Shown: in pieces, positions 44,068 to 44,828 of the stretch
Numbering within the stretch: the stretch's first letter is position 1
Layout: each line of letters begins with the position of its first letter
Notes under the pieces: generated by a model
Database searches by the model: none
Seen by the model: only the letters and a program-made list of their open reading frames with translations
Told to the model about the DNA's origin: nothing
Translations under genes and position numbers: made by a program
Assembly (NCBI GenBank): GCA_018266395.1
Contig: JAFEAM010000010.1
Location: 33,887-97,886, forward strand
Reading direction: 5' to 3'
Source of the DNA: Bacteroidota bacterium
GTDB taxonomy: Bacteria > Bacteroidota > Bacteroidia > Cytophagales > Cyclobacteriaceae
Length of the DNA stretch: 64,000 nt

Positions 44068-44529
44068 CTAAATGATGCTCCTGTCCAGGCTCTCTTCCAG
44101 CGAAATCATGGTCTCGGTGCGCTCAATCCCATCTACCTGCTGCATCTTATCGTGCAATACCTCCTTGAGATGATTGGTGTCCCGGCAATGGATTTTCACA
44201 AACATGGAATAGTTGCCCGTAGTGTAGTGGATGTTGGTGATCTCTGGAATCCCCTTAAGTTTTGTTAACACACTTTCATATAATGCACTCTTTTCCAGGT
44301 AAATACCTATGAATGCAGTAATGTCATACCCGAGTTTTGCGTAGTTGATCTTGAGGGTCGTCTTCTCAATGATTCCGGCCTCGGTCATCTTGTTCATCCT
44401 GACGTGAACTGTTCCCTGTGAAACGGCCACCTTTCTGGCCACCTCGGTATAAGGCCTCTTCGCATCCTCTATCAGAATGGATAAGATCTTGAGATCCGTA
44501 TTATCAACTTCATAATTATGAGGCTTCAT
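44068..44529 (-). CDS. Lrp/AsnC family transcriptional regulator
   Basis: 153 residues. Winged HTH with DLKILSILIEDAKRPYTEVARKVAVSQGTVHVRMNKM, then a RAM/ACT domain (ITAFIGIYLEKSALYESVLTKLKGI, YSMFVKIHCRDTNHLKEVL). Such proteins sense amino acids and often autoregulate. A palindrome upstream (44565-44583) is a candidate operator. Transcribed away from the tRNA-like gene. Confidence 0.92.
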   Translation of the reverse strand: MKPHNYEVDNTDLKILSILIEDAKRPYTEVARKVAVSQGTVHVRMNKMTEAGIIEKTTLKINYAKLGYDITAFIGIYLEKSALYESVLTKLKGIPEITNIHYTTGNYSMFVKIHCRDTNHLKEVLHDKMQQVDGIERTETMISLEESLDRSII

Positions 44530-44564
44530 TTGCGGTCTATTTTAGTTAATACTCAATATTATGC

Positions 44565-44583
44565 ACACTTTATTAAATAGTGT
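44565..44583. promoter_or_regulatory. Candidate operator palindrome for the Lrp-type regulator
   Basis: ACACT and AGTGT arms around a 9-bp AT-rich centre, within the 120-bp divergent region between the regulator and the tRNA-like gene. Its position about 36-54 bp before the regulator ATG suits autoregulation; it could also affect the tRNA-like promoter. Confidence 0.4.
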
Positions 44584-44603
44584 ATAATGTTTGTGATGTA
44601 TTA

Positions 44604-44635
44604 TTGAAAGGACGTATAGTACTCTGCTTACTTTG
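44604..44635 (+). promoter_or_regulatory. Candidate promoter of the tRNA-like gene
   Basis: TTG at 44604-44606, 21-bp spacer, and TTACTTTG at 44628-44635, near the TAnnTTTG -7 consensus. It ends 15 bp before the first base of the tRNA-like fold, a normal leader for a bacterial tRNA. Confidence 0.45.
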
Positions 44636-44650
44636 TACTGTCAATCACAA

Positions 44651-44795
44651 TGTAGGGTGTTGAAATTGGCAGACAAGCCCTCCTGTCTCGGGGGTGGGGA
44701 GTCCAGGAAAAACGCAGGATAATGGGTTGACCACTAAAGTTTATTCTTGTCCTGTAGCTAACTGCCCCGTGGAGGTTCGAACCCTCCCTCTACAG
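44651..44795 (+). tRNA. tRNA-like gene with giant variable region, anticodon GUC
   Basis: A complete tRNA core is present. Acceptor arms TGTAGGG (44651-44657) and CTCTACA (44788-44794), D-stem TTG/CAA, D-loop AAATTGGCAGA of tRNA-Leu type, anticodon stem CCCTC/GGGGG with loop CTGTCTC (44683-44689), T-arm GGAGG-TTCGAAC-CCTCC (44771-44787), discriminator G (44795). U8, A14, A15/U48, G18, G19, U54, U55, C56 and A58 are kept. GUC with G73 points to Asp, and the loop matches tRNA-Asp except U at 37. The variable region (44695-44770) is 76 nt and folds on GGGGAGT with ACTGCCCC. CCA is not encoded. Could also be a degenerate class II tRNA or a regulatory tRNA mimic. Confidence 0.6.
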
Positions 44796-44802
44796 CAACA
44801 CA

Positions 44803-44828
44803 AGCCCCTCGCCTGAGGGGCTTTTTTA
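44803..44828 (+). terminator. Terminator of the tRNA-like gene
   Basis: Arms AGCCCCTC and GAGGGGCT around a 4-nt loop, followed by six T residues. It starts 8 bp after the discriminator base and shows that the tRNA-like RNA is a self-contained transcript. Confidence 0.9.

Follow-up and report, generated by a model that had tools for sequence, protein, structure and literature searches.

The non-proteinogenic tRNA-Gly of Staphylococcus is set aside for cell-wall bridges and is altered to avoid translation; for decoding, U33 and a purine at position 37 are needed. The asparagine synthetase gene asnA of E. coli is transcribed divergently from asnC, whose product regulates it. Asparagine is also made on a tRNA in Bdellovibrio, Deinococcus and Thermus, where a non-discriminating AspRS is used and the product is formed on tRNA-Asn (PMC4206432). 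The signals that govern such reactions are listed in a review (PMC9976931): G73, G34, U35, C36 and C38 are strong aspartate determinants for AspRS, and bacterial tRNA-Asp strictly keeps G1-C72, a pair that helps the E. coli AspRS to position the 3' end. Both sources agree that U1-A72 confers GatCAB amidation of Asp-tRNA(Asn), whereas G1-C72 prevents it (PMC9976931, PMC4206432); in Asp-tRNA(Asp), U20a joins G1-C72 in this protection, as stated in the review (PMC9976931).

The RNA described here lies at positions 44651-44795 (+ strand) of a 64,000-nt stretch of Cyclobacteriaceae DNA (hereafter the window) and is, with a rough probability of 0.78, an aminoacyl carrier reserved for asparagine synthesis, probably non-decoding, that would act through AspRS and GatCAB. 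Its body runs from U1 to G73 without an encoded CCA, as delimited by direct reading, blastn conservation and alignment. The initial annotation had announced a complete cloverleaf with its tertiary bases kept, a 76-nt variable region, a Leu-type D-arm, a GUC anticodon, U37 and G73, and direct reading bears out each of these: T8, G18-G19 and the TTCGA T-loop are all present, and G73 is at 44795. The acceptor 5' strand UGUAGGG (44651-44657; 3' strand CUCUACA) opens with the pairs U1-A72, G2-C71 and U3-A70. It is followed by the D-arm (44660-44676), which has a 3-bp stem and an 11-nt loop and resembles the tRNA-Leu sequences of the same genome, and by the anticodon arm CCCUC-CUGUCUC-GGGGG (44678-44694), whose loop (44683-44689) contains U33, U37 and C38 around the anticodon (44685-44687). 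The variable domain (44695-44770) comprises a stem V1 (GGGG at 44696-44699, partner 44765-44768), a core internal loop and a stem V2 (44713-44719 with 44750-44757, one bulge). The 5' strand of the internal loop (44700-44712), of GGAYAAA type in relatives and near-invariant in one alignment (A1), faces CUAAC at 44758-44762, and a peripheral motif, GGGUUGACCACUAA, lies at 44724-44737. The T-arm, GGAGG-UUCGAAC-CCUCC, occupies 44771-44787. The promoter-like site and terminator of the initial annotation were also recovered, as a single + strand match scoring 9/12 at 44591-44620 and as an intrinsic-terminator-like hairpin followed by a T run at 44802-44823 (+).

Standard detection tools pass over this RNA. 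ARAGORN reported no tRNA within the window and was also silent on 16 other scanned member loci, and Rfam gave zero matches at gathering score in the window or in four further member loci; the tRNA or tmRNA match that the initial annotation had proposed to look for is thus absent at that score from the window. A tmRNA or another known Rfam RNA was rejected on the same ground, seven of the ten sub-threshold matches overlapping the terminator hairpin and being judged chance. Folding energy does not stand out (z -0.26 for the full RNA, z -1.52 for the variable domain) and, since these scores are weak, was dropped as evidence; a chance fold was instead rejected on conservation, the window RNA being judged above chance because it is conserved across genomes.

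This conservation is extensive. Matches by blastn, some of them partial, were found in 40 of 58 genomes, the source genome included. In an alignment of 30 sequences, one of which comes from a 636-kb phage record, 96.3% of cells are paired and two-sided changes occur at 18 of 31 pairs, versus 9.8 on average after shuffling and no more than 8 with slid partners. The corresponding values for 100 distinct sequences fitted to the covariance model are 97.0% and 22 of 31. The extra arm itself covaries in this larger set, with two-sided changes at 10 of 11 pairs (3/4 in V1, 7/7 in V2), and the conserved sequence with compensatory changes that the initial annotation had suggested seeking in relatives is therefore found. 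The idea that the RNA is a decaying tRNA, which could draw on its being missed by ARAGORN and Rfam, is rejected by the covariation in both alignments and the conservation across families, and has next to no probability left; among the three options originally offered, decay thus falls, while a special Asp-tRNA used outside translation is strongly supported.

That a real conserved RNA family is involved is near certain; it has no Rfam match, it occurs in many genomes and viral contigs, and its scanned members are missed by ARAGORN. Against the covariance model (R1), members reach at least about 75 bits (170.1 bits for the window RNA, which is among the building sequences), and ordinary-tRNA-looking matches stay at or below about 64 bits; those between about 20 and 64 bits were read mainly by length and loop as ordinary tRNAs or chance and are outside the counts. 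With a cut of ≥84 bits, 40 of the 395 genomes sampled across the phylum have the RNA; with E ≤ 1e-17, 67 of the 395 sampled from the class do. The two samples overlap and both contain the source genome. Pattern scans gave at least 119 stretches in named genomes, with Dyadobacter, Spirosoma, Algoriphagus, Cyclobacterium, Flammeovirga and Saprospiraceae among the matches listed, and 112 stretches in viral contigs. The 289 distinct sequences of at least 88 nt measure between 91 and 200 nt; the longest contains a run of N and some members are cut. Here, and in the locus, pair, motif and place counts, script filters had removed anything shorter than about 88 nt or lacking a UC-N-C loop. The variable domain of the family combines V1, the internal loop (GGAYAAA-type versus CUAAC), a V2 of variable length and often a peripheral GGGUUGACCAC element. 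Close forms of the window's peripheral motif occur in 103/227 bacterial and 56/62 viral distinct sequences, and a strict motif search recovered the internal loop and the peripheral element each in part of the family only. For the internal loop, a twister-like and a UAA/GAN reading were also considered.

Several members depart from this general plan. Flammeovirga pacifica carries five tandem copies at 197-nt spacing (L136:3687-4630, - strand), and three other loci (L073, L074, L129) hold tandem pairs, the leading copy combining a short variable domain with a CGAUCUC loop (G33, A34) and the second having a CUGUCUC loop. An extra hairpin-like insert is found inside the D-loop in three viral contigs (L256:814-984, L265:4918-5089, L207:1473-1643). 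In one group of related viral contigs (including L217, L223 and L224), the position of the RNA is recurrent, beside genes that by inspection resemble PhoH and encode a large protein, possibly a terminase. Finally, a 77-nt relative with a CUAUCUC loop and a tiny variable loop, perhaps a reduced form, lies in genome G047 (L360:1338-1414, - strand), which has AsnA.

Identity elements were counted in 100 distinct members from searches made without an anticodon pattern, although some bias remains, the model having been trained mostly on CUGUCUC sequences. U35, C36 and C38 are found in 100/100, a count to which no length or UC-N-C loop filter was applied, G34 in 92/100, and G73 in 99/99 of those with both ends, the A73 of tRNA-Leu being absent; GUC and G73 had been taken from the start as aspartate identity elements, and these counts agree. 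Among the same 99 bacterial members with both ends, U1-A72, G2-C71 and U3-A70 are invariant and G1-C72 is absent. U1-A72 is also present in 120 of 121 sequences of a pattern-selected genome set, the remaining one having A-A, and in 56 of 61 viral sequences, the other five having A1-U72. The source genome (G000; 4.43 Mb in 56 contigs, 97.6% complete) has one copy of the RNA by blastn and provides its own comparison, as its tRNA-Asp has G1-C72 and its tRNA-Asn U1-A72. The RNA thereby combines the synthetase signals of tRNA-Asp with the amidotransferase signal of tRNA-Asn. With ordinary bacterial tRNA-Asp it shares G34 (mostly), U35, C36, C38, G73 and G2-C71, but it differs by U1-A72 in place of G1-C72, U37, the Leu-type D-arm and the 76-nt variable domain; with ordinary bacterial tRNA-Leu it shares the D-arm and the type II variable attachment, but not the discriminator (G73 instead of A73), the anticodon or the size of the variable domain, which is far larger. 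Two points count against a carrier loaded by AspRS: the G1-C72 pair that helps the E. coli enzyme is missing, and G34 is replaced in 8/100. Of note, the anticodon is CUC in two RNAs and UUC (Glu) in one; such Glu-type members (L336:1501-1611, L339:1501-1616, L340:1501-1616), with U1-A72, might serve glutamate-to-glutamine conversion.

The same positions bear on whether the RNA decodes. U33 is kept in 84/100 (otherwise A in 7, G in 6 and C in 3), so that most members may be able to decode, and together with the GUC anticodon and the complete cloverleaf this would suit an unusual but translating tRNA-Asp isoacceptor. Such an isoacceptor is nonetheless very improbable, given that position 37 is U in 89, C in 7, G in 4 and never A, that 16/100 lack U33, that the first pair is U1-A72, that the variable domain is very large and that the RNA is tied to GatB and AsnC (see below). 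Moreover, the source genome also encodes an ordinary tRNA-Asp(GUC), a coexistence that the initial annotation had allowed for, along with five ordinary tRNA-Leu. A seryl carrier has its own appeal, because SerRS might recognise the type II arm, G73 and G2-C71; G73 and a long arm are among the determinants of this enzyme (PMC7609411). With the invariance of U35, C36 and C38 and the links to AsnC, AsnB and GatB all left unexplained, such a carrier is even less credible. The RNA likewise shares an unusual long arm with the allo-tRNA and selC-like tRNAs of bacteria, which have lengthened acceptor and anticodon stems (PMC7609411). Its own acceptor domain is normal, with a 7-bp acceptor and a 5-bp T-stem, and its anticodon stem has 5 bp; lengthening of the allo-tRNA or tRNA-Sec type is absent.

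The Lrp-type neighbour of the initial annotation is indeed an Lrp/AsnC protein (44068-44529, - strand; Pfam AsnC_trans_reg), encoded divergently with 121 bp between starts, and the intergenic region thus shared (44530-44650) is presumably regulatory, on the basis of promoter-like matches and the conserved divergent arrangement. The best NCBIfam model for this regulator is AsnC, at 170.2 bits, under the cut-off of 227. AsnC is the top model for nine other regulators as well, seven adjoining the RNA and two adjoining AsnB or an AsnB-like gene, the ten together scoring 137-179 bits against the same cut-off; it is not the top model for a control paralogue from the source genome (L398). Upstream of the RNA, 59/118 named-genome loci and 55/82 other genome loci have a divergent AsnC-type gene no more than 600 bp away, versus 0/73 viral loci with such a gene beside the RNA; 114 of the 115 loci with an AsnC-type gene have it upstream and divergent, and one has it convergent. 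Since certain places were represented by two loci, the loci were recounted by distinct sequence, which gave 105/186 bacterial places with the divergent gene within 600 bp, or 105/166 when only places with enough upstream DNA or a match are counted; at the other 81/186, 20 of which hold less than 800 nt upstream, the gene is absent or elsewhere. Genes downstream of the RNA vary between loci, and a functional tie to the downstream FadD gene was dropped because the FadD cluster recurs in only 18/119 loci.

In one genome with the same genus label as the source (G030), the AsnC-type gene is divergent, at about 160 bp, to a gene for the asparagine synthetase AsnB (NF006949, 950 bits), and the RNA was found neither by blastn nor by the model beside that AsnC-type gene. 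In a second genome (G110), the divergent partner of an AsnC-type gene is AsnB-like, at 491 bits against a cut-off of 499. No AsnC-type neighbour was found within 1.5 kb of AsnB in the other 13 genomes with AsnB over the cut-off, nor at the second copy of one of them (G078), and the AsnC-AsnB pair is thus present in 1/14 genomes with AsnB over the cut-off, plus G110. A swap of the RNA for AsnB in place therefore has one clear case (G030) and one weaker one (G110). Both same-genus genomes G005 and G030 are without the RNA and without GatB over the cut-off, and both have AsnB.

The U1-A72 pair, the AsnC-likeness of the regulator, the AsnB swap and a link to GatCAB all go beyond the initial annotation. 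The last of these comes from a panel of 80 related genomes, hand-picked from those listed, of which 48 have the RNA and 32 do not; the negative calls include ten made by blastn alone, eight by the class scan at 1e-17 and thirteen by the phylum scan with strict filters, and G047 is counted as negative despite its reduced relative at 70 bits. GatCAB presence was judged from GatB, which is found in 48/48 genomes with the RNA (47 over the cut-off, and G027 in two pieces) and in 13/32 without. AsnRS is present in 80/80, and GlnRS in 38 genomes with the RNA and 20 without. Among these GlnRS-positive genomes, GatB occurs in 38/38 with the RNA versus 1/20 without (Fisher p 2e-14, kinship uncorrected); in GlnRS-negative genomes, it occurs in 10/10 and 12/12, respectively, the latter being expected from a need for glutamine. 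The sole GlnRS-positive, RNA-negative genome with GatB (G460) has it fused to AspRS: directly after a gatA-like gene, L441:1304-4621 (+ strand) encodes a 1106-aa protein in which GatB is joined to an AspRS of bacterial type. This may be a single unit for turning aspartate into asparagine, and another way to feed GatCAB with aspartate.

Housekeeping AsnB is found in 0/48 genomes with the RNA versus 14/32 without, and AsnA over the cut-off in 3/48 versus 3/32, with one more RNA genome under the cut-off. TIGR01536-class paralogues, which might make asparagine, are over the cut-off in 41/48 RNA genomes; being so in 70/80 overall, TIGR01536 was dropped as a test for asparagine synthetase and NF006949 was used. 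Of the ten genomes without a TIGR01536 member over the cut-off, seven have the RNA, and these seven have no AsnA or AsnB over the cut-off either; the three without the RNA are G253, which has AsnA, G048 (1.6 Mb) and G056 (1.1 Mb). Neither AsnA nor AsnB is present in 11 of the 13 RNA-negative genomes with GatB, and five RNA-negative genomes (G048, G102, G110, G171, G463) have no GatB, AsnA or AsnB over the cut-off. These two groups, the AsnA found in a few RNA genomes and the TIGR01536 paralogues in 41/48 of them count against a role in asparagine synthesis.

Taken together, the AsnC link, the AsnB swap, U1-A72 and the GatCAB link point to asparagine synthesis. From what the sequences support, namely conservation, determinants, U1-A72, AsnC pairing, GatB co-occurrence and one clear AsnB swap, we infer the following pathway. 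AspRS would load aspartate onto the RNA, since the latter keeps the Asp determinants (G34 mostly, U35, C36, C38, G73, G2-C71); that the RNA is aspartylated is very likely. GatCAB would then convert Asp-RNA to Asn-RNA, as the RNA begins with U1-A72 and not with the protective G1-C72 of tRNA-Asp, and a role as GatCAB substrate is likely too. Since an RNA with a GUC anticodon would bring asparagine to aspartate codons, it would need to be held off the ribosome, an exclusion to which the loss of U33 and of the purine at position 37, and probably the large variable domain as well, would contribute. The asparagine would be freed from the RNA and then used by AsnRS, and free asparagine is somewhat favoured as the main product. 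Transcription of the RNA would be governed by the divergent AsnC-type regulator, and the variable domain may be a dock for an AspRS-GatCAB complex.

Two further readings keep the RNA outside translation. The first is an aspartylated RNA with another job, as a donor of aspartate or asparagine to a lipid, peptide or protein, or as a charging sensor for AsnC. It would show the same Asp determinants, and it could accommodate both the viral contigs, which have the RNA without the regulator (none of the 73 loci), and the possible asparagine synthetase paralogue kept in so many RNA genomes. This reading is unlikely, as AsnB takes the same divergent place in G030, as the housekeeping AsnB is missing from every RNA genome and as no aminoacyl transferase was recognised, by reading, beside the RNA among the neighbour clusters inspected. 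The second, an uncharged regulatory RNA or decoy controlling AspRS or asparagine genes, would fit with the RNA having its own terminator and a regulator. The invariant discriminator and the conserved U1-A72 suggest, however, that the acceptor end is in use, which makes a decoy hardly believable.

A dedicated asparagine carrier would be close to the tRNA-dependent route of Deinococcus, Thermus and Bdellovibrio, in which aspartate is likewise placed by AspRS (non-discriminating there) on a U1-A72 RNA and amidated by GatCAB (PMC4206432). There, the carrier is the decoding tRNA-Asn, whereas here it is a separate, seemingly non-decoding RNA with an Asp anticodon, for which a discriminating AspRS would do. 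The staphylococcal tRNA-Gly is likewise a tRNA set aside for metabolism, but its amino acid goes to peptidoglycan, with no amidation and no extra domain. The chemistry is already known; for the dedicated carrier, searches of open-licence PMC text listed no earlier description.

If this reading is true, the RNA would be a tRNA-like molecule that makes an amino acid instead of decoding, located where another genome of the same genus has an asparagine synthetase. Asparagine would then be made without a non-discriminating AspRS, and the retention of GatCAB in Bacteroidota that have both AsnRS and GlnRS would be explained. On a broader scale, the balance tips slightly toward the view that free-living Bacteroidota have exchanged a metabolic enzyme for an RNA, making their asparagine on a tRNA-like carrier that is reserved for this task and kept out of translation. 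In this view, the extra domain would bring order to AspRS and GatCAB, and perhaps to asparagine release, and the copies in phages would be auxiliary metabolic genes.
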